A stretch of 64,000 bases of DNA, taken from the NCBI GenBank assembly GCA_947034895.1, contig OX344761.1, positions 88,859,447 through 88,923,446 of the forward strand, in the 5' to 3' direction. This stretch comes from Rhytidiadelphus loreus (taxonomy: Eukaryota > Streptophyta > Bryopsida > Hypnales > Hylocomiaceae). Each line of letters opens with the position of its first letter. Within the stretch, counting starts at the first letter, position 1. Shown here one piece after another: positions 26,257-54,773 of the stretch. Position numbers and translations under genes: made by a program. Below the pieces are notes generated by a model, which did no database searches, was not told where the DNA came from, and saw only the letters and a program-made list of their open reading frames with translations.

Positions 26257-26590
26257 CACTACTAGAAAGGCATGTCCACAAGAACAGAAAATCAACTAAT
26301 TTGTGTTATTTAGAGTAGTACAATGATCATTTTGATCATATCTGTTGAAAAACAACAGAATGGCAAATACTTTCTGTTGTTTTGGATAGTGCAATGACCA
26401 AATCAACAAGTTTCTGTTGATTTAAAATTTTTTTAAAATTTTTTTGGAATTTTTTTGGAATTTTTTTGGAATTTTTTGGAATCTTCGGGAATTTTATGAG
26501 AATTTTCTAGATTCTTCATGGAATCTTTTAGGAATTTAAATATAATGATTAAAAAAAATTTTGAACATGTGAAATTAGTGTTTTTTCAAT

Positions 26591-26940
26591 TCAGCAGACT
26601 TTGGAGTCCAATCTCTCATAGTAGAACACATTTTTTCACAAAACTTGTAACTAAAGAAAGTTGTAAAATCAAGCTATCTTTCACCTCAAAAAATCCGTTT
26701 GGGATTTAGATCCTCCAATCAAAAGTTATAGATAAAAATCAGAGAGGGGTAGTTATGAACATTTATTTAACATTGTCAAACATCCTCTCTGATTTCTGTT
26801 CATAACTTTTGATAGGAGGATGAAAATCACGAACGGAGTTTTGGAGGTAAGAGATAGCTTAAATATACAACTTTTCTTAGTTACAAGTTTTGTGAAAAAA
26901 TGTGTTCTAATATGAGTAAATGGACTCTGAAGTCCGCTGA
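26591..26940. repeat. Long hairpin 1 inside the CACTA element
   Basis: The left arm runs from TCAGCAGACTTTGGAGTCCA and the right arm ends in the matching TGGACTCTGAAGTCCGCTGA. Interior blocks such as CACAAAACTTGTAACTAA pair with TTAGTTACAAGTTTTGTG. Arms are about 165 bp with a short loop near 26766. A transcript would fold into long double-stranded RNA. Confidence 0.85.
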
Positions 26941-26998
26941 AAATATGGAATTATTTAAAAAAAAATTTTAATCATTCACAAATTGGTATTTTAAAAAT

Positions 26999-27338
26999 TC
27001 AGTAGACTTCAGGGTCCATTTGCACATAGTAATTCTACTTTTTTTTTAAACTTAGAACTAAGAGAAGTTGTAAAACAAACTTAACTTTCATCTCCAAAAA
27101 TCCGTTTGCAATTTCGATTTTCCAATAAGAAGTTATGGGCAAAATTCAGAGAGGGCCATTTTCTTTTCACTTTTTAACACCCTCTCTGATTTTTGTCCAT
27201 AACTTCATATTAAAAAATCGAAATCACAAACGGATTTTTGGAGATGAAAGATAACTTTATTTTTCAACTTTTCTTAGTTCTAAGTTTTTAAGAAAAAGTC
27301 AATTTACTATGTGAAAATTAGCCCTAAAGTCTGCTGAC
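26999..27338. repeat. Long hairpin 2 inside the CACTA element
   Basis: It has the same architecture as hairpin 1 and is clearly related in sequence. It starts TCAGTAGACTTCAGGGTCCA and ends in the matching GTCTGCTGA, with CATCTCCAAAAATCCGTTTG pairing with its complement near 27225. The two hairpins look like a duplicated unit. Confidence 0.82.
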
Positions 27339-27415
27339 TTCACAAAGCACATAAAAAATTACTTAGAAAGAATTGAAATGCATTTTTTTTACTCATTATG
27401 ACATGCAAATTCAAA

Positions 27416-28550: not shown

Positions 28551-28635
28551 ACTCAACAATGCTACCCTTTCTAGTGAAAGGCAATGCTTGAGCACCTTCA
28601 ACAATAGATGGTATAGGTTTTGGCTCAATCCCTTT

Positions 28636-28752
28636 TGTCGTGTCACTCCGTATCGCTAACAATAAGTGTTGTAAACTACATGTACTACCACATACACACA
28701 TGCCCACATGCAAATCCACACTACAGCAAGGCATGAATGAAGAACCATTCAA
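28636..28752. repeat. 117-bp repeat on the outer side of the left gypsy LTR segment, copy 1
   Basis: This block, starting TGTCGTGTCACTCCGTAT, is repeated in direct orientation at 29131-29248. The two copies sandwich the LTR-derived segment 28753-29128. It indicates rearrangement or LTR-internal duplication at the 3' end of the gypsy element. Confidence 0.85.
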
Positions 28753-29128
28753 TAATAAGCTTCCCAAATATTCCAAGGTTGCTTCTACTTTGTCTCAATT
28801 GGATTAGTCTTGCAAAACAAGATGAATCAAGGAATAACACTAGTAAAGATTGGTATAACAACCAACCATCATTACTTCCATGCTCCAATTCCAATCAACT
28901 CATAAAACTACACACATATGCAAGACTTGAAGAGAGTGAAGGAGCAAAGGGGCGGCCTAGGGTTACAACCACCCCAAAGGAGCCCCCAAATAGCTTCGTT
29001 CACACCTCCTTTAGTCTCAAAACACTAGTATAGGCCCCCAATGGCCAATACATGGCCATTTGGACAATACTAAGCCTACGACATGCTCTACTGAGCCTAC
29101 CAACCACCCGCCATTGAATAACATGACA
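28753..29128 (-). repeat. LTR-derived segment at the left end of the gypsy element
   Basis: 376 bp are almost identical to 38418-38792. Both end on the plus strand in GAATAACATGACA, so the LTR begins TGTCATG on the element's own strand. The inner limit of the LTR could not be determined because sequence beyond the shared block differs at the two ends. Confidence 0.8.
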
Positions 29129-29130
29129 GT

Positions 29131-29248
29131 TGTCGTATCACTCCGTATTGCTAACAATAAGTGTCGTAAACTACATGTACTACCACATATACACATGCCC
29201 ACATGCAAATCCACACTACAACAAGGCATGAATGAAGAACCATTCAAT
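29131..29248. repeat. 117-bp repeat, copy 2
   Basis: Direct repeat of 28636-28752 with a handful of substitutions. It is followed at 29256-29289 by a compact hairpin with a 10-bp CTAGCTGAGT/ACTCAGCTAG stem and an inner GCG/CGC stem. Confidence 0.85.
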
Positions 29249-29596
29249 TGCCCACCTAGCTGAGTAAAGCGCCTTCGCAACTCAGCTAGCAACAAAAGTC
29301 CAATAAAATAAACTCCCCTACACTCACTATGTAATCAACATGTTGAAGAAGATAGACGAAAAGCCCCCATCCATTGCTGAGCTTGAATCAATCATAAGTG
29401 AAGGGGTAAGCTGGGTACAATTGAGCCCCATCCTCAATTGCTTCCAACATTGTAGTTGGACTCCACAAAATCTCCATCCTAGCTTCAATATCAAGAACCA
29501 CCGTTCATACTCCAACATTAAATGTTACAAAATGACTACATCTTCCGTCAATGAGAAAAGTAATCAGCAACCACTTGAAAAAGTAGTACTAGCTAA

Positions 29597-31507
29597 TCAC
29601 TTTCTACAACGGGGACAAATCCAACGTCCAACAAGAAGAGCAATCAATGGCGGTCGAAGACATGCCATGTGCCAACCTCGTTGATATGAATCACACAATA
29701 ACATTGTTGCAGCACCCTTGTTCCTACCACATACAAAACATTTAAATCCAGGTGGAACCACTGCCAACTCTGGATCCACAGTCCCTTCAATTGGCAAATG
29801 ACAAGGAGCGCAGTTCTTTGTGTTGTTTCTGCACTCTTGTCCATCCTTCCCCTCCAAAAGAAGAACTCCACTAGGCAAAATTGCCTTGACTCTCAAAATG
29901 GTCCGCCCTGTCCATACATCCAAGGTTGTTGGTGCCTCACGTTGTAAATACACGTAATCTCCAACCTTGAACCGTTGAAGTTGAGGCCTATAAGCCCCAC
30001 TTCTAATGCGCGCATATCTAAGAGTATCTCTGTGTTGCACTATCGCCAAATTCTCCATAGCCATTGGCATGGCCCTTTGGAAATACTTAGCTCGATCCTG
30101 TAGCACTTGTGCCCAAACTCCTGGATCATCCAAGTCTACAACTGGATCTAATTTCTCCCTTACCGCCGATGGTAACATTGGCTCTCTGCCATACAATAGC
30201 TCATAAGGGCTATAAGATGCAAGAGATGCCTATCGATTGAAACAATAACCCATCGCTATCCATGGTAACTTCAAATTCCAATCTCGGTGATTGCCTGCCA
30301 ACAATCCGTACTTGCGCAAACCGCGCTTAACTGTCTGAACCACCCTCTCTACTAATCCACCAGCCTCTGGGTGGTTTCTTAATGTTGTACAGTGATCAAT
30401 AAGAGCTTTAGTACAAAGCTCTTCAAATGCCCCTAGAAACTCTCTTCCTTGGTCTGTTAACACCTCAGCTGGAGCTCCAAATCTAGCCAATACACGATCA
30501 AGGAAGGCCGCTGTTGCTAACTCCGAGGAATTTTGTGGTAGTGCCACCAACTCAATCCACTTGCTGAAATGCTCTACCATCACAAGTACATACTTAGCAC
30601 CTCGTGATGTAGTCATCAATGGCATGGCAAAATCAAGACTCCACCTATAGCCCAAACCCATAATTGGCAAAGGCTGTAATTGGGGAGTTAGAGTGTTGAA
30701 GCTTGATCTAACCTGATTACAAACTTCACACCTCCCCACATAGGTTGCTACCTCTTGTCGCATGACCATCCACCAATACAAACCACGTAACATAGAATAT
30801 GTACGAAGCACTCCAAAATGACCCAACTCTTCATGAACCTGACGTATCAATTGAAGATGTTGGTTAGGCCTAGGAACAACCTTCCTTGTTCCATCTGGCC
30901 ATCTACGAAATATAAGACCACCCTCCCAATGAAACCTAGCCAAACGATGGACTACTCGGTCTCTTTCTTGAGATGTAATATTAGGTAGAAACTCCCTATG
31001 CTGAAGACGATGTAGAACCCCTTGGTCTTTCCACACATCACTGGTAACTTGAGGTCCTCTTCCATTTAAATCTTCATCAACAACATCCAATCGAGTCTCT
31101 CCTAAATCTTGGCTGGATCTTCCCTCCATCCAAGCCAAATAAGATGAAGCATGCCATCCTAGCACTACCTCTTGATCACATGTGCCATGCCAGCGGGTAC
31201 CAGTCAAATCTTCCTCCAAGGGACTTGGATTGCGGCTCAAGCCATCAGCATCCAAGTTTTGCAATCTCGCCTTGTGGACTACTTCAAAATCGTATTCTTG
31301 TAACAATAAGGCCCACCTAGCAAGCTTCCCTGTGAGTTTATCAGATTCCATCAACCATTTTAGAGGTTGATGATCAGTCACAAGTGTAAAGCTCTGGCCA
31401 TAGAGGTATGGACGAAAATGTGCAACTGCCCACACCACAGCTAAGCACTCCCCCTCATAAGATGAATATTTGACCTCTGCATCATTGTTGCTTCGTGAAG
31501 CATACAC
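29597..31507 (-). pseudogene. Gypsy RNase H end, integrase and PHD finger
   Basis: The frame starts within RNase H (TDHQPLKWL near 31360). It passes to an HHCC integrase zinc-binding region (VHEELGHFG...CEVC near 30730-30840), then the catalytic core with LDFA, TDQGREF (near 30450) and EAGGLVER (near 30350), the D,D-35-E triad. A TAG at 30227-30229 interrupts the frame. After it come YGREPMLPS, a beta-barrel-like FKVGDYVYLQRE segment, and a C-terminal PHD finger at about 29600-29740: CFVC...MLLCDSY...WHMAC...WICPRC. The fourth zinc ligand is Tyr instead of Cys. A PHD finger reads histone tails, so it could guide integration; chromodomains usually take that place in plant gypsy integrases. Confidence 0.88.
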
Positions 31508-32691
31508 AATAACATATTATTTGCCATCATCATCCTTCTGCGTCAATACAGCTCCAATTCCCAACATACTCCAATCTGTGTAGAGTTGAAAAGGTCGTCG
31601 AGCATCAGGCCTCCTCAACACTGGTGCTGAACCAAGTGCTCCTTTCAAAGCCTCAAGTGCCTTCTCTTGATCAGGACCCCATATCCATTCTTGATCAGCT
31701 CGAGTCAATCAAGTCAATGGTTTAGCTAAGAGACTGAATCCACGAACAAATCGTCGATAATAGTTTTCCAGTCCCATAAAGGCTCTCAACCTTGATACAT
31801 CTCTAGGAATTGGAATCATTTTCAATGCTTCCACCTTCGTGTAATCATATGTCCCAAATAAGGCAGCTGATCATGGAAGAATTTACATTTTCCGTGATGT
31901 AGGCGAAGACCCCAAGCTTGCAGCCTCTCAAAGACTTGCTGCAAGTGTTTTACATGCTCCTCCGGTGTATCACTAAAGATAATCACATCATCTATGTAAC
32001 ACCGAGAAAATGGCAACCCTTTCAAGACTTGATCCATAACACATTGGAACTTTGTTGGGGCATTCTTCAAGCCAAAGGGTAAGAACTTCCAATGGAAAAG
32101 CATATCTCTTCCATCCTCATCTACTCCCCAAAATGCCGTCTTCACCCTATCTTCAAGTCTCAATGGCAATTAATGGTATCCAGACCTCAAGTCCAAAGTA
32201 CTACAGACTTTTACCCTTCCAACTGCATCAAATAACTCCTTAGGTGTTGGCATAGGATATCGCTCTGATTTTGTTTTCTTGTTAACAGGACGATAATCTC
32301 CACACATCCGTTTCTCCGTCCAATTTCCAAGAACATCTTTCTTTGCTGGCATCACCGTGGCACATGCATACTCTCCATCTGAGAGTTCTACCAATCCGGC
32401 GTCCAAAAGTTCTTTGCACCTCAATTTGACCCCGTCTCTTTCTGAAAGGCTGAGTCTATATGGGTGTCTAAATACTGGATGATCATCTTCTAGTTGAATT
32501 CTTACAAACTTGCCTTTATAACCCTCCAAGTCAGTGAGTTTAAAAGCAAAGCAAGCCCTATACGAGCGAATGAATGCTCGCACCTTTCGTGCCTCTGCAC
32601 CAGTGAGTCCCATACCTATATCCATCTCCCAATCTTTGTCAATTGGCAAGATTATTTCTTTCTTTTGAGACCCCTTCGGTGGTACTGGCAC
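31508..32691 (-). pseudogene. Gypsy reverse transcriptase and RNase H N-terminal part
   Basis: Reverse transcriptase blocks occur in order: RHPYRLS near 32465, MCGDYRPVNKKT near 32300, STLDLRSGYH, FLPFGLKNAP near 32080 and the catalytic YIDDVIIFS near 31990, then LPYLGHMI. A TAA at 32170-32172 replaces a conserved codon right after GYH. The frame changes by one position somewhere between about 31720 and 31840. RNase H then begins with LYTDWSMLGIGAVL near 31590. A TAA stands at 31517-31519. Not functional as it stands. Confidence 0.9.
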
Positions 32692-32703
32692 TACCTTTGG
32701 TTG

Positions 32704-33128
32704 CTAGTTTGAAGGGCTTGCACCATTGTCCTTCTCTAAGACAATAGATGCATCTTCACCTTCTTTCATTTCAACTAAGCCATTTCCACTAGCATCACAA
32801 ACCACATCATTTGTAGAGTGAGATGATGTGGTGATATACGGGTTCTCTCTGGTAAGAAACACCCTCTTAAACTTTTCTTTGGCATCTTCCATATCCAAGT
32901 CTTGGGCTAATGCTGCCAATACACGTTGTCCTCACAAATCATCTTCTACAAGCCACTCCATAGCATATTGAGCTCTCTTCTTTTCAAATATTTGGCTCCA
33001 AGCTTGCTCACTATCATGCCATGCCTTAGCATTTAGAGTAGCCATCTTCTCCACTACTAGAGGCACAACACCCTTTGCCCCCTGGCCTGAAACATCTGCC
33101 CCCAGATGGCCTTGAAGGCCAAGTTTCT
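32704..33128 (-). pseudogene. Linker between methyltransferase and reverse transcriptase in the gypsy polyprotein
   Basis: The same frame as the reverse transcriptase continues upstream, interrupted by a TAG at 32704-32706 and a TGA at 32932-32934. The sequence is acidic and charged, with no domain I recognise. It physically joins the methyltransferase C-terminus to the polymerase, supporting a single gag-pol polyprotein. Confidence 0.7.
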
Positions 33129-33129
33129 T

Positions 33130-33866
33130 GTGCCGTTGAACTGCTAGGCATATCCCAACAAACCAAACCATAGATGTTAAGTCCATGGCTTGTCCAAGAC
33201 AATGGTGCCGTTGAGACTCTGTTAAACCAAGCCTGGTCCGCCATTGCGAAAAGCAAAAGACCGAGGATAACTCATCAACGTAGGAAATGCCAATCGAGGC
33301 ATTCCTACACGGTTGATTATAGCTAATGGTGGTTGATCTTCTTGCACCACTGGTTGGGCCGATCGCCCCTCCTCCAATATGTCATCAAGATGTTTGCCCT
33401 CGGGACGACTAATGCAATGTAATGCCGCAGAAATCCCTCGCATATGAGCCAAATTGGTCCACTTCCACCGTAAACGATGGGCGTAAGAACCAAGGGCTGC
33501 AGCATCCACTGCCACTGGCTCACCAAGGTGCTGACATACCAATCGTACATCCTCGTGAACTTGAGCTCCAACATCTCCCAATGGAGGCACATTCTCAAGG
33601 ACATAAGCCACACTTGTAGCTTGTCTACATTGCCACCAATGCAACAACCGTAAAAGCTCCCAAAATAAACTTGATCGTGGGTCTTGGAGTCCTTGGCGAG
33701 AACCAGCCCGGGAATGCCCTTGGCAAGGCCATCCAGCCATCACAAGGTCCACTTGGCCCAACCTCGAAAGATCTTCTTCTCCAATCAAGGCAATGTCTGA
33801 AGGAACTCGAGACATACAACCTTGAATAGCGCTTGCAGGTAGTTGCTTTGGATATTTCATTTTTAA
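33130..33866 (-). pseudogene. C5 cytosine DNA methyltransferase, motifs IV to X, within gypsy pol
   Basis: Motif IV is DLVMAGWPCQGHSRAG (catalytic Pro-Cys near 33750), followed by a GLQDPRSSLFWE helix. Motif VI is YVLENVPP, and motif VIII is AHRLRWKWTNL. A LDDILEEGR block and AFPTLMSYPRSFAF follow. The frame then shifts by one base near 33225, after which motif X-like RHHCLGQAMDLT appears. The spacing of ENV to AHR and the RLRWKW form resemble the DNMT3/DRM type more than DNMT1 or CMT. The catalytic Cys is retained. The upstream part with motif I lies beyond the MITE. Retrotransposon capture of methyltransferases is known from dinoflagellates and a charophyte alga (de Mendoza and colleagues 2018, from memory). 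Confidence 0.88.
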
Positions 33867-34080
33867 CACTACAAGAAAAGTTGTCCAAAATGACAGAAAC
33901 TCGTCCGAATCAACAAGTCCTAATTGACAAAAAATTGACAAATTTTTGTCGATTTGGACAAATTTCTGTTAATTCAATCAATTTTTTGTCCAAATCGACA
34001 AAAATTTGTCAATTTTTTGTCAATTAGGACTTGTTGATTTGGACCAATTTATGTCATTTTGGACAGCTTTTCTTGTAGTG
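33867..34080. mobile_element. 214-bp CACTA-type foldback MITE inserted in the methyltransferase
   Basis: The terminal inverted repeats CACTACAAGAAAAG and CTTTTCTTGTAGTG are flanked by TAA on both sides (33864-33866 and 34081-34083). Almost the whole element is self-complementary about a centre near 33973. Its position splits methyltransferase motif I from motif IV. The length of the insert plus one TAA explains exactly the frame difference between the two flanking coding parts. Confidence 0.93.
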
Positions 34081-34083
34081 TAA

Positions 34084-37000
34084 CTGCTCCAAATGATGTT
34101 TTGCAGCTCTACTCACCACTCTATTGTTGTCCACATAGGTATAACTTTGTATAGAAAATCTTGCCTCCAAAATTGCAGCCAAACCAGTACCAAGTCCAGC
34201 AAATAGCTCCACAAGAACTATGCCCTTAGGATCATCAGAAAGATCCACAAGTTGTTGTAGAGGTGGTAGTGTGTGTTGTGGTTTCCATAGCTGCTGGTTT
34301 ACTTTCTCCACTAATTCATAGCATTTCTCAGCTAAACCTTTTGGTGAAATCCATGGTGGTATGGGATCCTTGGGATGTCTTACAAATGAGTTGATTTTGC
34401 CTTGTGTTGGCGTATCTAACTCTGGAGGTGAGTCTATAGCAGACATGTTGCCCTCTAATAGAAAATCTCCGGTTGCAAACCACTCTGCAACACACCCATA
34501 CACTGCCACCAATCCCTCAACCACGCCAGCAAAAGCTCCAAAGATGACCGGAATCACCTCCTTCCATCCATCTCCTTGTGACCACCCTAGTCGAAACCAT
34601 GCCTCCTCAATCCAAGAATCATGACCAAAACCAATGGGGTACAAAGCTTGCTGCCCCAAAAGAATGTCATAGCTTATAGCATTTGTTACAACACACCTCA
34701 CAGAGATGTGAGTGTACGCATCAGTGCCCACCTTGAACCGAAGTTGTAGGGGCTCTTTCGTCATCCCCGTAGGCTGCTCTGTGCCCCCTAGCGATGTTGA
34801 TATGGTGAAAGGACATGGCTCCAAGTCACTAGCAAGAAGCCCCAAACTCTGAGCTAGCAACTTGCCTAGCATAACTAGTTGGGCTCCTGTATCAAGCAAT
34901 ACTTTTTGTGGAAACACTTGAGATGCTTTACCTCGATCCACAAAAAAGACATGACTAGAATTAGCCAAACGCACCACTCCAGGCTTGACTTGCAAACGCT
35001 CACGAGTTGCACGAGCTGGTACCGTTGCCAAATAGCTTGTGGCAACTTCAACATCACTTCCAACAGTTTCTCCACTTGAATTCAAGTTGCTATCAAACTC
35101 TCCTTCTGAAGGAGGTTCTTTTGGCCACCCCTTCCAACATCGCAAGGCATTTGCTGCTCCTTTAACAACATCCTTCTTTGTGCACTCATCACCCTCAGCC
35201 AAAGAAGACTCTTCCATCTTCCTCATGGCCAAATCAGCAGGCATCTGGACCGTACCTTGCATTATTTTTCCTGCCATATGATATACAGCAGCTGCATCAA
35301 AGTTACCACTGTGCAATTGGACCCCCGAGAACAATGGAACCTCCAAGAGTTTGAGAGCCAAACTCTTTACCATGTCTCCCTTTTTTGGTGAATCTCTTTC
35401 ACTAGAAACTGTTCCAAGTGATGGACCACTCACTACATCTGCTAGACCAAATGGCAATGGCAATTTTGATTGCCCAATGCTATCAGGAGGCCCATGGTGG
35501 CGCACGTGAGGTCGACTTTGGTTGCTTGAATTTTCTTCCACCATGGATGCCACAGGCACAGAACTAGCTTGAAATCTAGTGGCCACTGCTGCAACCACCT
35601 CACCAAGTGCACCATACTCAAACCTATCTGATCTAGGCTTTGAGCTAGAAGGTGTTGGTGTGATCTTTGTCGTCGCCGCAACTAGCAATGCTAGAGTATT
35701 TTGCAACTCTCCCATACGTGCCTCCAGATTGTTGCCCCCAGAATTTGATCCACTTCCTTGAGCAGCTTGTGGGGTAAATGATTGAGGCCTCAGTTGTGGA
35801 TTCTTCACCCAACACTTATCCTCTATGTGACCAACCTGGCTACAAGGTGCATAAGTGCATTTTGAAGGTGTACTTCCACTTTGAGCCTTCTTTGGTTGCC
35901 CCTTGTTTGCCGTAGATGCATTACCCTTGGTGGTAGCTGGTTGCCCACCGCTCTTGCCCTCAGATGATATATTTGTAGGACAATCTCTCTTCCCATGTCC
36001 TAGCAATCCACAATTCCAACACCGCATATGAGGATTGGCTACTACCTCCACTTCAGCTGCCATAGCAACTTGCTTGGAGGCCTTAGGAGTCCCTTGGCTT
36101 TTGCTAGAGCCACCAACAACGGCCTTAGATTGGCTTGTTGTTGAAGTCATGATGGATGACAGTCTCCCAGCCTCCTCTACACATAGCCCTCGATCCAATT
36201 GTTCCACAACAGCAAAGGCCTGTGCTAAAGTAGCCCGACCTCCATACAGTAACAATATGTGAGGGTGTGCCATGTCACGAATCTTCTTGTCTTGCTTCCC
36301 CATGTAAAGCTCCACCAACTGTCGCTCCGTAAATGCATCTCCACTTTCACAGGCAAATTTGGAAAGCCTTGCATACATGATGCGGGGAGTATCTCCAGTT
36401 TCTTTCTTGAAGTCTTGGATGTGGCGCACGCGATCTCGGCGAATACCACCAAATTCCATCTCCAAATGTTTGAAAATCAATTGAAGAGGATCAAACTGAG
36501 GAGGAGGGCCCATTGTGGCTATTGCCTCGGTTGAAGCTCGAGACAACCGAGAGATGAATGTAGCTGCAGTCCCATCAGTGCCACTTGTAGCGGCTCTTGG
36601 GTGCAACCGTGCAGCACGTGCTGCATTAGGGCCCGAGGTAGCTTCTGCACCCCGCTCATCATCTCCATCACCAGTCCTTGAAGCCACAACTGCTGGAATC
36701 GCAACTCCCTCCTTCAATGCGGTGACTAACTCCACCCTTCGAGCCCAATAGTCTTCTACCTCCTCCAATTCAAATCTATGATCCTCAAACCAAGAATCAT
36801 AAGCTTGTAGAGCCTCAAACTCAAGATGGGCGGGCAATTGTTCAAATGCCCACCAATCATTGAACAACGCATTGCGTTGTCTTTGTGTTCATTGCCAAGA
36901 ACGAAACCTAGTCTTCCAATCGTTGAAGGCCACGCCTTTAGCTCTCCTTGAGTAGCGGTCACGAACCATAGATCCACCGCCATGGTCCTCCATGATGCCA

Positions 37001-37131
37001 AAAGCACTGATCCCCCAAATTTTGGGTGGATCAATAGTCACAATTGGCAAGGCTGGCTCCTCATCACCCTCTGCACCACGAATATCAAAGTCTTCTAATA
37101 TGTTGTAGTCACGAGTACGTGTCTGTACCAC
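34084..37131 (-). pseudogene. Gypsy gag, aspartic protease and methyltransferase motif I
   Basis: Translation starts at the ATG at 37129-37131. A TGA at 36889-36891 breaks it, then the frame is open for over 900 codons. The gag core includes FDPLQLIFKHLEMEFGG and a Glu-rich helix. Two zinc knuckles follow: CWNCGLLGHGKRDC near 36020 and CTYAPCSQVGHIEDKC near 35840. A Ser/Thr/Pro-rich spacer leads to the protease with VLLDTGAQLVMLG near 34900 and YDILLGQQAL near 34660. After about 120 residues comes VLVELFAGLGTG near 34200, methyltransferase motif I (SAM binding), followed by YTYVDNN, the motif II region. The MITE interrupts the frame at 34080. Gag, protease and methyltransferase share one frame, so this is an in-frame fusion rather than a neighbour gene. 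Confidence 0.9.
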
Positions 37132-37639
37132 AAATAATCTTCAAACGTCGAATCTTCTACTCCACCGTCGAACTGCTCAACGTTGGCCTATCCTGTTGCG
37201 GCTCTAGATTGGTTCAAGTCGCAAGGTAGGGATAAGAAACCACAAGATATGGGACGGGTAGAACCGATGGCATACCACGAGATACCATCGATGAAATGGA
37301 TCCTAAACCTCAAACTTACGGTTTGTTGGTCATCAACTTAGTCCACCGCAAGAACAGAGCAATTCTCGACCATGTGGGTCATCAATCCCACTTCGTCACC
37401 ACGACAAGAAATGCAGCTGAGCAATGGTATGACCCACGCCACTCGCAACAACAATAGTTTACAAAGCGTAAATGAAGCCTCCAAAATAGGCCAAAGTATC
37501 ACAATTACAAGCAATTAACTGTAAGCCCTCTAAACCCTTCTAACTAGACTCCATCTATACTTCCCAAACTAAAACCAACCTCTACTATAATAGACAATTA
37601 CCACTATTTTTTTTTTTTTTTTTTTTGTAGTAATTTTCT

Positions 37640-37800
37640 CAAAACAACTCCAAAATTACTGCAGTAACTATCTAGGTAATTTTCAAAATTACCCCAGTAA
37701 CTACCCCAGTAACTTCCAAAATTACCCTAGTAACTACCCTAGTAACTTCCAAAATTACCCCAGTAACTACCTTAGTAACTTCCAAAAATTACCCTGATAA
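37640..37800. repeat. Short tandem repeat in the gypsy 5' leader or LTR
   Basis: About four to five imperfect copies of a unit of roughly 33 bp built from CAGTAACTACC and TTCCAAAATTACC blocks. It lies between the gag start and the LTR-derived segment. No coding potential. Confidence 0.8.
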
Positions 37801-38417
37801 TTGGTTCGGTAATACTAAAAGTTACTCTAGTAACTAGTCCGGTAACTTCTCAAAGTCAACCGGTCTTCGTCTCTCTCATTATTCCAAGCTATCAACGCTT
37901 GAAAAACATCAACAATCCTCACAAAAACACCTCCAAAAACAAACCCCAATGCAAAATTTCAAAACGCCATAACTTTCTCAATATTTGGTAGTTTTTGGCA
38001 ATTTTGCAGTTTTTGGATAGCTTACACTATTTGTGATCTTTCTAACACTAAACAACCACCTAAATGGCCCCAAAACACCAAATCATCACTTTTGCATGTT
38101 TGGTCCAGCACACATGAGGGTTTCCACCAATCTACTCAAACTCTCATAACTTTTGCAAAAAGTGTCGAAATTGCTTAAAACTTGTTTCTATGGAATTCTT
38201 ACATCAAAGAGCTTCTTCTTAGATCTTCATGGCACCTTTGGAAGCTCTCCAACACCCTCCACCTCTACATCAGCACCTCCAACACCAAAGCTCCAAAACT
38301 TGAATTTGCCAGAGCTTCCGCACGTCACCACCAACGCCAACAACTCCAATATACCAAATCAAACCTCTCTAACAACTCTAGTGCTCTCACATCAGCACCT
38401 ACACCACTCTCTTCAAG

Positions 38418-38792
38418 TAATAAGCTTCCCAAATATTCCAAGGTTGCTTCTACTTTGTCTCAATTGGATTAGTCTTGCAAAACAAGATGAATCAAGGAAT
38501 AACACTAGTAAAGATTGGTATAACAACCAACCATCATTACTTCCGTGCTCCAATTCCAATCAACTCATAAAACTACACACATATGCAAGACTTGAAGAGA
38601 GTGAAGGAGCAAAGGGCGGCCTAGGGTTACAACCACCCCAAAGGAGCCCCCAAATAGCTCCGTTCACACCTCCTTTAGTCTCAAAACACTAGTATAGGCC
38701 CCCAATGGCCAATATATGGCCATTTGGACAATACTAAGCCTACGACATGCTCTATTGAGCCTACCAACCACCCGCCATTGAATAACATGACA
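38418..38792 (-). repeat. LTR-derived segment at the right (5') end of the gypsy element
   Basis: Almost identical to 28753-29128. It ends at the junction with copia leader DNA (38793 onward). High similarity of the two copies, set against the many stops in the coding region, suggests either late gene conversion or that the element was already defective when inserted. Confidence 0.8.
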
Positions 38793-39403
38793 CTTTGACT
38801 ATTGGCCAAAACCTCTCAACCTTAAATAATGTCATGCAATATTTTCAAATATTAGAAATGTACCATCAAATTTTGTAACATCTTTATTGTCGATCACTCT
38901 ATGACAACTTGTCATAATTAGATTAATTTGTATTAAAATCTACAGTAGAGGGAATTTTGAGGGCAAAAACAACCCATTTCAGGCCTATTCCAAATGATGT
39001 TTCCACGGCAATAAAAGACTGCAGCGCGGTCAAATTTTTGTTTTTTAAATTAAAAAAGAAATGATTGAAAATTGAAAATTGAAAAAATATGAAAAAAAAT
39101 TGAAAAAAAAATTATTTTATTTTATATTTTTTAAAATGATGTGACCCAGTCTTGACCACGTCTAATTGCGCAGTTGGTAGCGTTCCCAATGCAATCGAGA
39201 GAGATTTCAAAGTCGGGAATTCACACGCTTCCGGAGGCTCCAAATATCTTATAATGCTTTACTTAGAAGCTTTGAAATTTCCTTTATCCAAGCTAATTGT
39301 TTTGAATACATTATGTGCTTCTACATGAATGACCTATTGTGTGTTAAGAAATACATGCTAGAAGACACATATGGAAATAATTGGAATCACTTTAATATCA
39401 CAT

Positions 39404-41784: not shown

Positions 41785-42571
41785 CCCCTAAATGCCTAGG
41801 TGACCAAATATGGTTGATTTGAAATTTTAGGCTCATTTTGCAGTGAGTAGTTAAGTTACTTTGACCGTTTAAAAAAAAAATTCAAGTAGTTTTGATGATT
41901 AATTATTGAAAACTTTTATTTTTCACTAAAAAAGGTAAACATTTGATTTTCGACAAGTCTTCAAAGTCATATATGTCTATTACTAGAAGAGTAAATTTTG
42001 CTAATTTTACTTCATTTCCTAACTTTGAGCAAAGTTTGCCAATTTCACTTGATTTGAGATCTAAAAACTTGTACTTATCCATTTGCTTTGAAAATGATCC
42101 CAATGCAAAGAGTAAAGTGTTTTCATGTTTTTCACCATTAAAAATTTAAACATGCAAGGAATTATTTGTGATTTATACTTATAAATAAAAATCGCATTTC
42201 AACAATTGCAAGGTAGATTGTGTAATGAATTTGATAGCCTTTCATGAGAAATTAAGTTTTTTGAAAGTGCATTTTAGTGTGCTAACATAATTTGTAGTTG
42301 TTCATGTCACTTCCAATTCAAAAAAAATTATATGCAAATTTTTGAAACATTGTGGGGAGGGGCAACATATTAAAAATATAAAATGTACATTTCTCTTGTT
42401 ATAATCTCACAACTCCTATGCAATTTTGCACTCAAAATTGGTAAGCATATTAATAAGCAAGCTTTGTAAACATCTGTATGGTTAGATTTTGAAAGAAAAA
42501 AAAATTTGCTTCATTGGGAATAAGTTTTTTCATAGTCAAAACACACTTGAAAAGACTTGAGCATTTAGGGG
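41785..42571. mobile_element. TTAA-target element, long subfamily (787 bp), left arm
   Basis: The termini CCCCTAAATGCCTAGG and GACTTGAGCATTTAGGGG lie between TTAA sites (41781-41784 and 42572-42575). The surrounding DNA, 'TTGTTGGGCC-TTAA-AGCTACTCC', exists without the insertion at about 43472-43492 and 48091-48111, each with a single TTAA. These empty sites show directly that TTAA was the target and was duplicated. No coding capacity. Confidence 0.9.
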
Positions 42572-44801
42572 TTAAAGCTACTCCTTGGGCACATGTTGTG
42601 TAAAAACTCCCTTCATAGTGAACTGCTCAAAATTGCTATGTTGCCCCCAAAAATGCAATTTAGAGTTATAGGGGTCACCCCCGAACGTTTTTCGGTGTTT
42701 TTAGGCCCAAAACTACTTCAAAGTAGTCAAATCCAAAGTATGGCTAAACCCTTCATCCTTATTTTTTTCATTAACAAATCCAATCATAGCATCCTTTAGT
42801 TAACTTGTTAGTGTAGACCCTCCTAAAATTTTAGTACAAGAAACCTTACCAATTGCAAGATCTTGTTGCTTGGGTTTCAAAAAGAAGTATTTTCAACTCA
42901 TCTAAAATGGTTATATTTCATCTTTCAAACTTTTTATACAAAAAGGTGTAGATCCTACAACTTGTTACTCTCCATAACATGTTGAAAATATAAGTTAGAA
43001 ATACATACATATAAAATTTCAACAAAAAATATTTCATATTTATGCTTGAAAAAATAGTAAGTAGAAAAAGGTAGATTATGATTTAAAATACTAAATTTTT
43101 AAAAATTTAGTTATGGAATTGAAAAATGCCAATTCCAATGGTCATAATGTTGTAATAAACCATTTATATCCAATGCTTTTATTTTTTTCAAAAGTATTGA
43201 CTATTGAGTTAAACAAAGGACCTCAAAGTTTATTTTAGAGTAGAGATTCCATAAGTACCTACAAACTAAAATTGCTTGTAACTTTCATCTTGTTAATTAA
43301 AATGAAATGATTCAAAGCTTTCCACATATACATAAATCTAGGAAAACAAGTTCAAATTTTTATTTCTTAAAAACCTGATTTTTTCTAAACTTCCCAAGTT
43401 GCCCACCAAGCAATGAAAATTACATATCATACAATAACTTTTGAACCATGTAGTCAAAAGTTATGAAATTGTTTGTGCCTTAAAGCTACTCCTTGGGCAC
43501 ATGTTGTATGAAAATTTCAAAGAAAGAAAAGAAAACTCCATTCATAGTGAGTTACCAAAAATTGATATGTTGTGAAAACGTAGTTTAGTCCTTTTGGGTT
43601 TTCCCAATAGAAATCTATTGTGTCAAAATTATAACATACAATTCTACATCATTTATTTTGTACACATGATACAATATCCTTTGTAGTTATGCAAAAGAAT
43701 TACTACAAAAAAATGCAATCTATCTAACACAACTTAAAACATTATAGTATCATAAAGATTTTTAAAGATAAATGAGTTGTGTTGGTAGTGATTTGATATC
43801 AGATTGATTTGATGTGAGATTGATTTTACACTTGACTCGAGGAGTCTTTTTCTAATCTATATTGTATTTTGTTGGATGTTAGTTTGATAATGGTGGTTCT
43901 AAGAGTGGTAGAATATGCCTTGTAATGAAGATGACTTTTTTGCCCTCCCATGGTTCTCTAAACCTATCCATCTAAAGAAAATTGGTGAAAATTTCCCACT
44001 TCTTACTACTTTTAGAACATTATTTTGTTATTGTGTTTAGAATTCTAAAGCAATGGCAAGATGGCATTTGGATTTAGTAACTTGAGGATATGGGGAGCTA
44101 CTTCCTATCCCTACTCTAGTTGTTCAAGTTATTCTACATGCTATAAGTGCCCTTCAGATTCACAAATTATCCAATCTAATGATTTGGAAGCTTGGAACAA
44201 AAATGAAACTAATGATAATGGTGAAGTATTACTATTGCATATTGTTCTTGACCTTGGCAATGGATCTGAATTTTCAAATTTGCTAATACAAACACTCCTA
44301 AAGCCATGCAATGTCTTTGTGATATGCAATTGAATTTGAGAGATATCTCAAATGGTGACATGGCAAATATATGAAGAGGCTAGAAGGAATATTTTGCTTG
44401 TTGAACATTACTTCAAACAAGCCAATCCACAAGTTGTTGAGAAATAACAAGAATGGTTGATTTAGAAACAAACAAAGTTCAAGGTCTTTTCATAGTACCC
44501 ATTTCTACATTGCACAAATTACAAAACTTACAAATGAAAAAATTCAAATTCAAATAAACATGTTGTTGGAGGCATGGCACAATCTCACTACAATCTCTCT
44601 AGCTTAATAATCATCAAACACAATGACAAGTCTTTGTTCAATTTAATATGAAAAAATGATTTTTGCTTGATTTTAAATCAATAAAAATGTGGAACCAATT
44701 AACAAGGTCCATCAATACATGTAGAAAGAGTCTGCCCAAGTCCACAAACTATTCAAATATAAACATATTTACATCAATGTCTACATTCATAAAACTACAC
44801 T

Positions 44802-45755
44802 TTAATTTGTGCACTCAAAAGGAGTATAATTGCACCTACTTTTTTCTAACCTACTTTCTTCAAACTTCCTTGACATTTCTAGAAGCCATGGATGCTTCAA
44901 AACCTCCGATGCACTCAAACGCTCCTTGACATTGTATGTCAACATTCTTTGAATTAGGTCTTTTGCACCCTTCGAAATGCGTGGCCATGGATCCTTGGAA
45001 AACAAGTCATGGCCCTTTATAATTTTTCCATATACATTTGTGGATGTGCGGCCATTGAAAGGAGGAAACCCTACTAAAAGACCATATAGTACCACCCCAA
45101 GGCTCCAAATGTCCACTTTGGGTCCATGTTTGCGCTCCATGACTTCAGGGGCCATATATACCGGAGTCCCAACAACATTGGTGAATACATCACCCTGCTT
45201 AAAGAATTGGGCCAATCCAAAATCAATCACTTTGAGTGCCGAATCTTTGTCTTTGGTTTCGAACAACACGTTTTCAAGCTTCAAGTCCCTATGGACAATG
45301 CCAAAGCCATGGCAAGTCTTAATAGCACTAGCAATTTCCTTGATCATTTGAGCAACTCTTGGCTCGTCAAAAGTACCATTTTTAAGCATACGATCAAGGA
45401 TTGTCCCTCCTTCACATAGCTCCATGACTATGTATACATAGTCATCATCTTCCAAAACATCTTTGAGTGCCACTATATTTGGATGCTCTTTAAGATTGAT
45501 CAAGCATAGGATACCAACTTCACGTTCTACCATTTTAATTTTTTTTGGTGAGACAAGGTTGCTTTTTGGTATGTATTTGCATGCATAATGTTTTCCGGTT
45601 GTAATTTGGGTGCACAAGTAGATTACGCCAAAGTTCCCGGCCCCCAATTGCTTGCCTTTAGTATACAAGTCCATCATTTTGATTGTGCTCATTTTGAAGA
45701 GCGACAATTGACAAGGTTGTGAAAGCAAAGAGACAAGAATACTAAAGAATAGCAA
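44802..45755 (-). CDS. Serine/threonine protein kinase, CDPK-like catalytic domain only, left copy
   Basis: A single-exon gene of 317 codons. All kinase landmarks are present in order: GAGNFG glycine loop (residues 38-43), YACKYI lysine, VEREV glutamate, HRDLKLEN catalytic loop, DFGLA, GTPVYMAPEV activation segment and DIWSLGVVLYGLL. The domain resembles calcium-dependent kinases, but no junction domain or EF-hands follow, and the protein ends about 30 residues after the domain. In this it resembles phosphoenolpyruvate carboxylase kinases and orphan CDPK-type kinases. The best start is probably Met22 (ATG at 45690-45692), since the first 21 residues are hydrophobic and lie outside the domain. 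No introns, unlike most CDPK genes, so a retrocopy is possible. It is identical to the copy at 57282-58235. Confidence 0.9.
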   Translation of the reverse strand: MLFFSILVSLLSQPCQLSLFKMSTIKMMDLYTKGKQLGAGNFGVIYLCTQITTGKHYACKYIPKSNLVSPKKIKMVEREVGILCLINLKEHPNIVALKDVLEDDDYVYIVMELCEGGTILDRMLKNGTFDEPRVAQMIKEIASAIKTCHGFGIVHRDLKLENVLFETKDKDSALKVIDFGLAQFFKQGDVFTNVVGTPVYMAPEVMERKHGPKVDIWSLGVVLYGLLVGFPPFNGRTSTNVYGKIIKGHDLFSKDPWPRISKGAKDLIQRMLTYNVKERLSASEVLKHPWLLEMSRKFEESRLEKSRCNYTPFECTN

Positions 45756-45868
45756 TGCCTTGTCTTTTGTAGATCGAGGTACCTATCTTTTACTTTGATT
45801 TAGTATTTACCTATCTTTTATTTTGATCTATTTTCCATCTTTTTCATTGCTTGGATTTAGTTTTCATT

Positions 45869-46038
45869 TAGCTTTTACTTTGATTTAGATTTCTATTAGC
45901 TTTGACTTTGAATTAGTTTTCATTTAGCTTTGACTTTGACTTAGTTTTTATTTAGCTTTGACTTTGACTTAGTTTTTATTTAGCTTTGACTTTGACTTAG
46001 TTTTTATTTAGCTTTGACTTTGTCTTAGATTTTATTTA
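45869..46038. repeat. 28-bp tandem repeat upstream of the kinase, left arm
   Basis: About six copies of AGCTTTGACTTTGACTTAG followed by TTTTTATTT, the outer copies less regular. They start about 115 bp before the annotated first ATG, so they fall in the likely promoter. TTGAC words are the core of W boxes, the sites of WRKY transcription factors; here the matching strand reads AGTCAAAG. Mirrored at 56999-57168. Confidence 0.85.
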
Positions 46039-46848
46039 GAAACAATTCATTAATTTGAGAAACAAATGAGATGTAGAAGAAATTTTAACAAATAGTTGAT
46101 AGGTATGAATGTAGGTTTGCCAAAAGGAGAGTTGTCCTAGCAAAGCCTATGACATCTACATTTATGCTTTGGGCTCCCTCTTTACATATTGGTGCTCATC
46201 ATATTTTGCAGTCTTGTTGTATTGAGCATCCTTTTCACAAGTGGGTTACTTACATGAATTCACATGTCTTTTCTCAGTTTCATTGCTTGCTAATTCTAGT
46301 AAGGCAAAAATGTTTTTAATACTTGTTGATTAAGACATGTTAAGAAACTGGTTTGTTCATGGAGTCTAACCTATGGTAAATGTTCTAGAATTTGGGTGCA
46401 TTTGATGTAGACATATATCAATGTTTATTTAATGATCATTCAATTATGCCTCATGTAACCACTTCTAGATAGTTTAGTGAATTTTGGATAAAATACTTGC
46501 ACGAACACTTGGAGATTCCCATATGGTTATCTATTGATGTTGTATAGATCTTTGTATGTTTTGTATAGATCTATAAATGTTTTGAATGTTCTCCTAATGA
46601 CTAGTTTTTTTTATTATTGATTCTAGACTTTCAAAAGTTCAAAAGTAGTTAAATGTGTCATAATTTCTCTCATTTTTGAGTTTCATGTCTATTTTTTTCA
46701 ATTCATATTTGAATAAAAATTTGTATTTCAGGATTCTCCTTTGTGGATATGTAAAGGCTTTAAGTGCTCAAAGGAATAGATCCCTAGTGGGATGTTGGAG
46801 GCATGTTAGGCTTTCTAGAGAAGAGCATTAGGATTTTCATTTTTTGGT

Positions 46849-47149
46849 AATAGGCCCTTTAACCTCATATGTTTTTGGTGGACAAATTTTAGATTTGACA
46901 TGTGAAAAGAGGATTGAAAGACTTTAAATCACTTTTGCAGTGTTTACACCCTCATGATCAAAGAATATATTCTTTCAATCTCTAAATGATATTGTTGTGT
47001 TTTCTTTCCTATGTGATCTCTAACATGTCTAGTTAGAATTTGTATGATTATAATTCAATAGAAATTGATACAACTTATCAAAATGTTGACTTTTTGTTTA
47101 ATTTAGAGCAGTTCCAAGAAGCTCAAAAAAGGCCTTGGGCATTTAGGGA
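46849..47149. mobile_element. Truncated TTAA element, mid-length subfamily, left arm
   Basis: It matches the reverse of 24598-24905 and ends in GGCCTTGGGCATTTAGGGA followed by TTAA (47150-47153). The other half is missing. Mirrored at 55888-56188 in the right arm. Confidence 0.7.
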
Positions 47150-48934
47150 TTAAGTCTATTCTCTAAATGTCTTGCATTTTAGGAAACCTTTGGATCTCTT
47201 CTACAAGTTTTTGAAACTAAACTTGAAATGAAATTTAGTTTTAATGGTCTAAATCTAACTTGTACTTTAGCCGTGGGTTAACCGTTAAATGATTTGGACT
47301 ATGTTTTCACCAAAAACTCTCCAAAACTGCCATTTCTAGGATAAGTACCACATTTGAGGGAAAAAAACATTTTTAGATACATGTAGCTATAGGATCTTGT
47401 AGTACGTTGGTTTGAAAAGATGTGGAAAAATTTCAGAAATTTTCACCTTGTAGATTACAAGATATTAGCATTGGAAGTGACAAAAATTCTTTTGGGGGAC
47501 CTACAAAACATTGTTTAGTTGCACTTCACAAGCTCACATTTTTATGAAAAAATGTACAAAATGGTAGTTACTCTTTAGATTACTTCTTCAAATCAAGTTG
47601 TCTACATGCTTGAAATTTTCTAGATCATTTGGAATTGTATAACATAGAGGGAAAAAACGGTAAGTAGAAAGAAATAGAAAATGATTCAAAATTATACTAA
47701 ATTGCTAAGTCAGAATTAATTTATGGAATTGAAGTATGCCAATTCCAATGGTTGTAATGTTGTAATAAATAATTTGCTTTTAATATTTTTTTTCCTAAAA
47801 TATTGAGTTAAATAAAGGACTTCAAAGTTTATCTTAGAGTAGAGATTCCATAACTACCCGCAAACTACTCGCAAACTAAAAGTACTCAAAACTTTCATCT
47901 CATTAATCAAAATGGAATGCATCAAAGCTTTCCACATATATATAAATTTAGAGAACCAATTTCAAAATTTTGTTTCTTACAAAAGTTATTTTTTAAAGAA
48001 GTTTTTTTTGCTCCCCATCAAGCAATAAAAACAGCATATCATAAAATAACTTTTTAATCGTGTTAGTAGTTGAAAGTTATGAAATTGTTGGGCCTTAAAG
48101 CTACTCCTTGGGTACGCATTGTGTAAAAATTTCAAAGAAGAAAAATAAAAGATCCATTCATATTGAGTTGCCCTAAATTGCTATGTTGCCAAATACACAG
48201 TTTGGGTTGAGGTTCATAATTGCAAGACTTAGAGAGAAAAACGGATGGGATTTAGGAATTCACCTTGGATTGAACTTCATCTATGAGGTGGTCGAGAACG
48301 TCTTCAAAGCCTTCCTTGTTCGCCATCTTATTTTTCCTCAATATGTGCTTATCACTTAATTTTCAAAGTTTGGGTTACAAGTTGTGGAATTTCATTCCAA
48401 AAACTACTTCTTAATTTTTCCTTCTTTCTATTTCTCCTTCTTTTTCTTTTCCACTACTTCTTTTCTTTCTACTTCTATTCTATTCAATTCAATAAATAAT
48501 TGAACTTCATTAGTTGACTTTGCAATGGAATACTCGTTCAAATTTCAAGACAACGATGCAATAATCTTGTCTCCCTATCCAAAGTCAATATTCTTGTACA
48601 ATCTAATTCTTAATGGCTTAGTGGAATTCTTTAGATTTTTGCCTAATCCTATCATGATTGCAAACTCTTTGAATTCAATAATCTTCACCCATCCCACACT
48701 CAATTCTATTAGCATTTTTTAAGATGGCTTGAGTTTGGTAATTTCCTATCCTCTTTACATCAACAATTCTTCTCTCCTTCTGACTAGGTTGAGTTTCTAT
48801 TACCTTCTCTAATGTTTTGATTGCACCATTGAGAATATTTGTGAATTTTTTGGTATGTTTCAATTTTACCTACTCTCATACTAATTCTATTTTTTTACCT
48901 TTTCCCTCGATAGTTTCCAACTATCAATTATTAA

Positions 48935-49156
48935 ACCCCTAACTGCGTCGACATCTAGAAAGTGGACGATGAACAAAGGGCTTCAAGGCGTTGTTTTGTC
49001 CAACTAACTTTCCATTCATCCAATGTAAGACTTCAATTTTGAAAAGAAAACCTTCCTTAATGATCAATTTCATGAAATTCTAGTAAATGATATTTCTATA
49101 CAAAGATATAAGCAAAAATGTGTCAAAATTAGAAAAAAGATCGAGGCATTAAGGGG
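48935..49156. mobile_element. TTAA-target short element, 222-bp subfamily, left arm
   Basis: It is bounded by TTAA (48931-48934 and 49157-49160) with termini ACCCCTAACTGCG and GAGGCATTAAGGGG. Mirrored at 53881-54102, where the CG in the left terminus is CA. The interior is related to intron 3 of the dihydropyrimidinase gene. Confidence 0.7.
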
Positions 49157-50292
49157 TTAAACACCTAATGTTTTGTTTCTGTTTTTTATATGACTTTGGA
49201 GTCTAGAGCCAAACTCTAGACCATTCTAGACCAGACAGTCCAGAGCAAACCCCACCCCAAGTCCTTGCCACATGTCGGTCATGGATTGGCCAAGACCCGC
49301 CTCCTGACTGTACCAGAACCCTGCCGGGTGACTGTACCCGCCAAATGGCAGGTCTTGATTGGTCTGGCCCCCCCACCCCAAGAAACACCTGACTCTACAG
49401 GCTCCCAACCTTGTTTGGCTGGCTCCGAGGGTTGTTTGGAATTTTGATTTTTTGGGCCTTCCTATGTTGGTTGAACTCTACAACTGGAACTTGTTTTTTC
49501 CTAACATTGGGTATATGTTGGGTCTTCTATCCTGGGGTTAAAGCAATGGGACCTAGTTTTTGGTGCTAATTTTTAACACTCACTTAAAATTTTATATTTT
49601 GATATCTAATGGTTGGATGTTAGTGGTGGGAATCAAACACTAAATTTTGGACATTAAATTTTTGTACTAAATTTTGGGGCTAATTTTTATTTTTTGGTTG
49701 GGGTATTTGGATATTTGGAAACTAAATGTAACCACAAGTGTGGATATTTGGAAACCTAATGGTACGTTCTCACCTAGTGTTTGGTAATGTTCAACGATTA
49801 AAAAAAATATAATACCTCTGGACAAAAAATTTATTTAACCCCTTGATGTTTTTGACTATGTTTTTACCAAAAACACTCTAAACCATCATTTCTTTTACAA
49901 GTACCAAATTTTAGGAAAAAAACATTTTTGGATGTGTGTAACTATTAGGATCTTGTAGTAAACTTGTTTGAAAAGATGTGAAAAAAGTCTCAGAAATTTT
50001 CACCTTGTAGATTGCAAGATATTAGCATTTGAAATTATCTAATTGAAATCTATGTTTCTTTAAAAGAACTAAATCAAACAAGTGGATGCATCAAAGCTTT
50101 ATTGTTACTTTTAAGGATTTCATTTTTGGGGGTTCAATTTGAATCTGAAAATGAAGCTATAATTTATCATTCTATTGCATTTAAAAACTTTCAAAACATC
50201 CAAAAATATGATTTATTGCAAGAAAAATGCTTGCCTAGGCCTTTGTGCAAGTACTAAAGGTCTTTGAGACAATTGCTTGAACCTATAAACAA

Positions 50293-52421: not shown

Positions 52422-53880
52422 AAGCAAGGTTATTCAAACTTGTATCTTTTACAAATGATATAAAAGAAAAAAATAGTCTAATTTTTGAAGAAGATGCATG
52501 ATCCCATATAGATCTTTGTGATTTTTTTAATTATAGAATGTCTCATTCAACATTGCCTCATCTTATAAATCATCCTCTCTCATTTGATCCCTAGCAGCAA
52601 GAAGTCAAGCCCTCCATTCGTCCATGATGAATAGAGGCAAAAAATAAAAAATAAAAACCTTCAACAATGACTCTCAAATAAAGAAAAGAAGCAAGAGCTA
52701 CTAACAAGTTTCCAAAACCACCCTTCAAAAGAGCTCCCAGTTTTGGGAGCCCAACTCATCCGCTTAGTTTTGAGGGGCCTGCCCAACTTGCTAGCCCAAC
52801 AATACTATCCAAAGGTGCCCGACTTTATTGCATTAAATTCTTTTTGGGATTCCTGACGAAATAGCCTCTTACGTGGCCTGCACCACGGGGGCTGCTGGGG
52901 TCCCAGCAACGTACCGGCCCCTTGAGGCCATATTTACACAGTCTCCAACAGTCTCTAGACTCTTCCAATTACAATCACTCAAAACTACAGTCTTACTAAA
53001 TGCTTTTTGATTTCTTACTCGCTACGTTGGGACATGTGTCATAAATCTATGAATCCCAATTTTGAAAAAACATTCTAGCTATGGTTGGAAATATGTCAGT
53101 GTAGAGGTTGGTTATTGGATACTAATTAGGAATGGGTGACTTCCCCTTATGTTGAACCAATGCCAAAGCAATTGAAATTATTTTTCCTATAAAACCTACA
53201 GCTCTCCATTTTTGTCCAGAGGTATTATATTTTTTTTAATCGTTGAACATTACCAAACACTAGGTGAGAACGTACCATTAGGTTTCCAAATATCCACACT
53301 TGTGGTTACATTTAGTTTCCAAATATCCAAATACCCCAACCAAAAAATAAAAATTAGCCCCAAAATTTAGTACAAAAATTTAATGTCCAAAATTTAGTGT
53401 TTGATTCCCACCACTAACATCCAACCATTAGATATCAAAATATAAAATTTTAAGTGAGTGTTAAAAATTAGCACCAAAAACTAGGTCCCATTGCTTTAAC
53501 CCCAGGATAGAAGACCCAACATATACCCAATGTTAGGAAAAAACAAGTTCCAGTTGTAGAGTTCAACCAACATAGGAAGGCCCAAAAAATCAAAATTCCA
53601 AACAACCCTCGGAGCCAGCCAAACAAGGTTGGGAGCCTGTAGAGTCAGGTGTTTCTTGGGGTGGGGGGGCCAGACCAATCAAGACCTGCCATTTGGCGGG
53701 TACAGTCACCCGGCAGGGTTCTGGTACAGTCAGGAGGCGGGTCTTGGCCAATCCATGACCGACATGTGGCAAGGACTTGGGGTGGGGTTTGCTCTGGACT
53801 GTCTGGTCTAGAATGGTCTAGAGTTTGGCTCTAGACTCCAAAGTCATATAAAAAACAGAAACAAAACATTAGGTGTTTAA

Positions 53881-54710: not shown

Positions 54711-54773
54711 ATGGCGAACAAGGAAGGCTTTGAAGACGTTCTCGACCACCTCATAGATGAAGTTCAATCCAAG
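54711..54773 (+). other. Possible captured exon (21 codons)
   Basis: An ATG opens a short frame, MANKEGFEDVLDHLIDEVQ, ending in AAG just before GTGAATTC, a usable splice donor. The amino-acid composition is protein-like in an otherwise AT-rich stretch. The mirror copy is at 48264-48326 on the minus strand. No following exon was recognised. Confidence 0.3.

Follow-up and report, generated by a model that had tools for sequence, protein, structure and literature searches.

A C5-cytosine methyltransferase in a Ty3/gypsy retrotransposon lineage of the moss Rhytidiadelphus loreus, encoded between the protease and the reverse transcriptase

Retroelements carrying C5-cytosine methyltransferases have been described in a charophyte alga and in dinoflagellates (de Mendoza et al. 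2018, PMC5890265). The algal element, KnitGypsy-Dnmt3 of Klebsormidium nitens, holds a Dnmt3 enzyme in a gypsy Pol open reading frame (ORF) and has DIRS-like repeats (legend of Fig. 4c in that paper); its enzyme is reported to be under purifying selection, with Ka/Ks < 0.2. The dinoflagellate elements SymbioDIRS-Dnmt3 and SymbioLINE-Dnmt belong to the DIRS elements, which rely on a tyrosine recombinase, and to the LINE elements, respectively. Neumann et al. (2019, PMC6317226) sort plant Ty3/gypsy elements into lineages that include chromoviruses, Athila, Tat, Phygy and Selgy, and the main text of that classification contains no occurrence of a methyltransferase or a PHD finger. Here we analyze a methyltransferase-bearing element in a 64,000-nt stretch of the genome of the moss Rhytidiadelphus loreus (assembly GCA_947034895.1, contig OX344761.1, positions 88,859,447 to 88,923,446), hereafter the window. 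Compared by description, the element belongs to the KnitGypsy-Dnmt3 kind and is not new in kind; what it adds to that kind is a leaky-stop context, a PHD finger, target duplications and a land-plant range. No land-plant case of a methyltransferase-bearing gypsy element was found in the PubMed Central literature searched, most subscription papers and all preprints lying outside it.

The window copy is confirmed as a Ty3/gypsy element with a C5-cytosine methyltransferase between the protease and the reverse transcriptase (RT), as a reading of the sequence alone had proposed (Table 1). Pfam matches in the window are far beyond chance (DNA_methylase E 5.7e-12, RVT_1 2.8e-23, rve 2.1e-14), and the order protease-RT-RNase H-integrase, with a DDE integrase after the RT, recurs in Pfam scans of two other loci, L041 and L122 (the latter a relative discussed below). 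This gypsy domain order is that of the Neumann lineages; KnitGypsy-Dnmt3, as described, shares the gypsy domains and, within the polyprotein, a Dnmt3-type enzyme without introns or rearrangement. The methyltransferase motifs lie in canonical order on the minus strand (33184-34218), as the sequence-only reading had it: motif I (VLVELFAGLGTG) in an open frame shared with the protease, followed by IV (GWPCQGHSRAG), VI (LENVPP), VIII (AHRLRWKWTN) and X (RHHCLGQAM). Between motifs I and IV sits an insert resembling a miniature inverted-repeat transposable element (MITE), with inverted arms, a TAA duplication and termini CACTACAAGAAAA that we take to be of the CACTA type; similar stretches recur widely across the genome, as short matches that cover query residues 1 to about 40. 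Because the insert splits the enzyme and motif X lies in another frame, the window copy has no continuous enzyme, and its gag and RT-integrase regions contain further stops or frame changes. This copy is dead and can no longer perform the function proposed below. An Rfam scan of the window at the gathering threshold gave no match.

Table 1. Features of the element in the window (positions in the 64,000-nt stretch)
Feature	Position	Strand	Remarks
Whole element	28636-38792	minus	10.2 kb; termini TGTC...GACA; 4-bp target duplication AAAG at 28632-28635 and 38793-38796
Repeat A1, left terminal repeat without B	38412-38792	minus	98.4% identical to 28748-29128; Kimura two-parameter distance (K2P) 0.011
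gag (weak zinc-knuckle match), aspartyl protease and methyltransferase motif I (34183-34218)	34054-36888	minus	open stretch
MITE-like insert within the methyltransferase	33866-34081	none	216 bp, TAA on flanks
Methyltransferase motifs IV (33702-33734), VI (33582-33599) and VIII (33453-33482)	33222-33968	minus	first residues of the frame are MITE sequence
Methyltransferase motif X (33184-33210) and linker	32932-33381	minus	frame other than that of IV-VIII
Conserved UAG (32704-32706), then CAA CCA AAG G	32694-32706	minus	predicted leaky stop at the methyltransferase/RT border
Reverse transcriptase, two open pieces (32170-32703 and 31822-32169)	31822-32703	minus	Pfam RVT_1 on second piece
RNase H, integrase zinc domain, DDE integrase core	30230-31516	minus	Pfam
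Integrase end with C-terminal PHD finger (about 29606-29740)	29597-30229	minus	PF00628 E 3.9e-9
Repeat B1, then (sense strand) 2-nt spacer AC at 29129-29130	29131-29248	minus	
Repeat A2	28748-29128	minus	
Repeat B2	28636-28753	minus	6-nt overlap with A2

The genome scanned comprises 407 Mb, carried almost entirely by five long contigs, and the copy counts are lower bounds. The search for other genomic copies, which the sequence-only reading had put forward as a check, revealed a family with some unbroken enzyme genes. Family A occupies at least 25 places including the window, with 74-100% identity to the window enzyme (genome protein search), and family B and its kin add at least 28 more, each matching over 150 residues or more with 33-45% identity, fragments aside. 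At seven of 24 family-A loci the 355-codon enzyme match runs as one stop-free stretch of at least 339 codons, and at three more it falls into two stretches; the catalytic motifs are retained in most family-A copies. Lineage integrases are 39-100% identical to that of the window, and ordinary gypsy integrases 26-33%, their RNase H reaching 43-51%. An enzyme is found no more than 6 kb upstream on the same strand in 50 of 65 lineage integrase clusters. Among lineage clusters exceeding 1 kb it is present upstream in 41 of 47, against none of 26 ordinary gypsy clusters, absence meaning here no match to relatives of the window enzyme query; one of the six enzyme-less clusters (C1:42558595) is a split-off part of an enzyme-bearing element. 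The count used 74 + 26 of 126 integrase rows, 26 RNase H-only rows of ordinary elements being dropped, and 70 methyltransferase rows, after removal of rows confined to the MITE part and of second pieces from a copy already counted. The near-complete lineage integrases with an enzyme upstream rule out a one-off insertion, and the enzyme is carried by a gypsy lineage, as had been suggested.

Judged by fold, profile and motif order, the enzyme is DNMT3-like and not DRM. The best solved relative of the window enzyme is DNMT3A (3.1e-8), and profile comparison places DNMT3A (3.7e-19) ahead of DRM2 (8.1e-10) and of tRNA-C38/DNMT2 chains (1.1e-5 to 9e-5). The element enzyme displays the DNMT3A fold and the canonical order I-IV-VI-VIII-X, whereas the order in DRM enzymes, including DRM2, is rearranged (VI-X before I-V). 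A DRM origin is therefore rejected, and of the initial description as a DNMT3/DRM-like enzyme only the DNMT3 part stands. Fold and motif order are shared with animal DNMT3A/B and plant DNMT3, but the element enzymes form a separate clade, and scans of element proteins from the window, L041 and L122 gave no match to a PWWP or ADD domain. In the phylogeny, 28 element rows fall into a single clade with 100/100 support, separate from human DNMT3A, from host DNMT3 and DRM and from phage-type enzymes; the root is not resolved. A scan of viral contigs with the enzyme returned 34 loci with 25-46% identity over parts, which we read as phage-type enzymes. The ratio of nonsynonymous to synonymous substitution (dN/dS) across copies has a median of 0.21 for the enzyme in 85 pairs with dS > 0.25 (in this set the window row carries MITE letters at motif I, a mapping artefact). 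This value indicates that the element enzyme is under purifying selection, like that of KnitGypsy-Dnmt3 (PMC5890265).

The host has methyltransferase loci of its own, presumably two DRM-like, four DNMT3-like, two CMT-like and one MET1-like, which we named by eye from their motifs. The DRM-like loci (L045 and L046) are rearranged, and the four DNMT3-like loci lie in exon-like pieces. A search of the genome for YABBY, run with no positive control, gave no match; taken together with this methyltransferase repertoire and the relatives described below, it points to a bryophyte host. Comparison with the host DNMT loci and the tree revealed no host gene close to the element enzyme, let alone the near-perfect match that the sequence-only reading had named as counter-evidence. 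Three small contigs of the assembly (C397, C174 and C80; L001-L003) also show strong PF00145 matches on long open frames, the first together with an ORF that we take to resemble GyrB; they are probably bacterial contamination.

Family A follows the plan A1-ORF-B1-A2-B2, with A1 (381 bp) at the left end and B1 (118 bp), 2 nt, A2 and B2 at the right, and these split repeats rule out a plain element with two full-length long terminal repeats (LTRs). Genome-wide, A matches have B on both sides in 10 of 40 cases, on neither side in 28 and on one side in two, and 11 B pairs are spaced 493-531 bp apart; the survey scored 40 A matches of 66 candidates and gave 42 B matches, with 40 of 49 candidates scored. 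All eight elements examined, namely the window copy and seven others picked for having both ends in the match lists, begin with TGTC, end with GACA and are bounded by a perfect 4-bp target duplication. Two family-B copies (L061, L062, L063) have their ends in or beside tandem arrays. The repeats are akin to the A-coding region-B-A-B arrangement of SymbioDIRS and to the DIRS-type arrangement of KnitGypsy-Dnmt3 (PMC5890265). Split direct repeats are thus present as in DIRS elements, but an rve integrase of the DDE type and 4-bp duplications stand in place of a tyrosine recombinase without duplication, and they likewise set the moss element apart from SymbioLINE. The Neumann lineages have plain LTRs and not split repeats, and the 4-bp duplications fall within the 4-5 bp of most of them (PMC6317226). 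A1 and A2 diverge by a K2P of 0.003-0.032 in the eight elements, pointing to young insertions. Among the 33 transitions between A1 and A2, nine are at CG and six at CHG, sites that constitute 7.5% and 4.1% of cytosines; methylation has probably acted on the element copies, irrespective of the enzyme responsible.

The integrase product ends in a PHD finger (PF00628) in the window, in L041 (4.5e-10) and in L122 (4.3e-10), and a family-B copy has a similar integrase end by eye. The main text of the KnitGypsy-Dnmt3 paper contains no occurrence of PHD (PMC5890265).

Relatives are found in other organisms and datasets. Protein searches returned relatives from the liverwort Calypogeia fissa (P0060, 714 aa, 47%) and Sphagnum troendelagicum (P0074, 46%), a bryophyte-type range beyond the KnitGypsy-Dnmt3 description, and many metagenome proteins matching at up to 80% over parts, with P0051 and P0057 at 73% over the full length. 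The gene-name style of another match, P0047, is presumably that of the charophyte Spirogloea. A deeper enzyme group (P0072, P0081, P0093, P0062 and P0067) shows 34-36% identity, with an aspartyl protease joined to the enzyme in the first three; the longest contig of P0093 measures 147 kb. L122 (9215 nt) is a whole relative of the element with a 55% identical enzyme, filed under a Synechococcales metagenome-assembled genome (MAG) and evidently mis-binned. It and P0053, filed under an Obscuribacterales MAG, are apparently eukaryotic retroelements mis-binned as bacterial methyltransferases. L122 has the same GACA-NN-TGTC junction as the window copy, and its contig ends overlap by 57 nt, which could come from folding of repeats by the assembler or from circular DNA. 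None of the matches was recognised as a K. nitens element sequence.

A UAG codon separates the enzyme from the RT at 26 of 27 readable distinct places (22 in family A, one of them with TAC, and five in family B). In both families CAA CCA AAG G follows directly; a letter-by-letter comparison of one family-A with one family-B copy finds 14 exact letters in common at the UAG, against 37% ungapped identity in the flanks. In L122 the junction of two long open frames, of 1162 and 1047 aa, reads UAG CAA UCA. This context fits the strict type-I rule for leaky stops, whereas that of families A and B fits only a looser rule, CARYYA, which covers CAA CCA. The strict rule is UAG CAA UYA, and plant readthrough amounts to 32% in the tobacco mosaic virus context and 11% in that of beet necrotic yellow vein virus (PMC2754532). 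Ribosomes probably ignore the UAG of the moss elements at times. Since the enzyme lies upstream of the conserved codon, it would be produced together with Gag and protease: most likely it belongs to the abundant Gag-protease product and the RT-integrase-PHD part to a rare extension, produced by predicted readthrough. In this the moss element differs from KnitGypsy-Dnmt3, which is described with a Pol polyprotein ORF (PMC5890265).

The plan of the lineage is gag-protease-DNMT3-like methyltransferase-leaky UAG-RT-RNase H-DDE integrase-PHD with split direct repeats; domain order, stop context and repeats are directly visible in the copies, and readthrough is predicted. We lean, by a little more than an even chance, towards an old bryophyte-type Ty3/gypsy lineage that makes its enzyme at Gag level via the leaky UAG, methylates its own complementary DNA (cDNA) and steers its integrase with the PHD finger. 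Most ribosomes would halt at the UAG and yield Gag-protease-methyltransferase, while a minority would read through and make RT-integrase-PHD as well. The methyltransferase would be packaged at about Gag level and would act on the element cDNA in the particle or before integration, and the PHD finger would guide the integrase on chromatin. Methylation in or near the particle is preferred on the ground that translation would yield the enzyme along with Gag; the most likely benefit would be that the cDNA arrives already bearing a mark of host DNA. As far as sequence can tell, methylation of its own cDNA by the element enzyme is plausible. Several observations weigh against this reading. The closest published enzyme, that of KnitGypsy-Dnmt3, produced no methylation in yeast, an outcome its authors consider inconclusive (PMC5890265). 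Ordinary gypsy elements of the same genome lack the enzyme, yet the matched part is free of stops in 17 of their 26 integrase rows, so the enzyme is dispensable for gypsy persistence. Over all 225 pairs, mostly of young copies, dN/dS is 0.40 for the enzyme, 0.48 for the RT start and 0.23 for the protease. The CG/CHG bias of A1/A2 differences implies that the copies were not spared the methylation mark.

A broader and decidedly more tentative proposal is a streptophyte-wide gypsy class that combines split repeats, a DDE integrase and a Gag-level DNMT3-like enzyme made via a leaky stop. Completion of the element's ends would be templated by the B1-NN-A2 junction, which reads GACA-2 nt-TGTC in the window copy and in L122, in a replication cycle midway between DIRS and Ty3; the new DNA would be methylated in the particle ahead of PHD-guided integration. 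It is unlikely that the enzyme instead acts after integration, in trans and on chromatin, methylating the insertion site or other copies and thereby damping its own family (self-restraint) or silencing nearby host genes, with the PHD finger as a reader. The PHD finger of the integrase product, the DNMT3-like fold and the CG/CHG-type decay of copies would suit such action, but the finger lies downstream of the UAG, outside the main product that holds the enzyme, a particle-packaged enzyme would encounter cDNA first, and host DNMT loci could account for the decay. We give still less credence to a service to RNA (genomic RNA or primer tRNA) in the manner of DNMT2 relatives, or to a structural part in Gag without catalysis. 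Translation with Gag would agree with either, and RNA methylation has been raised for the LINE enzyme (PMC5890265); the retention of catalytic motifs in most family-A copies and the profile preference for DNMT3A over tRNA-C38/DNMT2 chains argue against both. It is highly improbable that the UAG reflects ordinary decay or a quirk of assembly: many copies carry other stops, CAA CCA deviates from the strict context and readthrough is a prediction, but those other stops differ among copies while the UAG recurs, its exact context is common to families A and B amid diverged flanks, and a third lineage, L122, obeys the strict rule. Neutral drift after a one-off or recent capture of a host DNMT3 gene, to which the four host loci named by eye might point, is barely worth entertaining given the separate element clade, more than 50 places in two sets and the low dN/dS of divergent pairs, and the tree placement rules out recent capture.

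The window contains other features outside the element. Positions 42062-49828 and 53209-60975 form an inverted repeat with 7,767-bp arms that are 99.97% identical, and one CDPK-like kinase ORF of 326 aa is present in both arms (44802-45782 minus; 57255-58235 plus); the repeat is either a palindromic duplication of recent date or an artefact of assembly. A complex fold-back (26578-27350), made up of inverted as well as direct repeats of 55-181 bp, lies beside the right end of the element, and a 226-aa open frame (1435-2115 plus) has no Pfam match at E 0.01.

The known range of DNMT-bearing gypsy elements is widened from one charophyte alga to bryophyte-type plants, the present host seemingly having DNMT3, DRM, CMT and MET1 of its own. 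The combination of split repeats and integrase-type target duplications presents a concrete puzzle for reverse transcription. As the predicted leaky stop would set the place and the amount of the enzyme, the question of why a transposon carries a silencing enzyme becomes testable.
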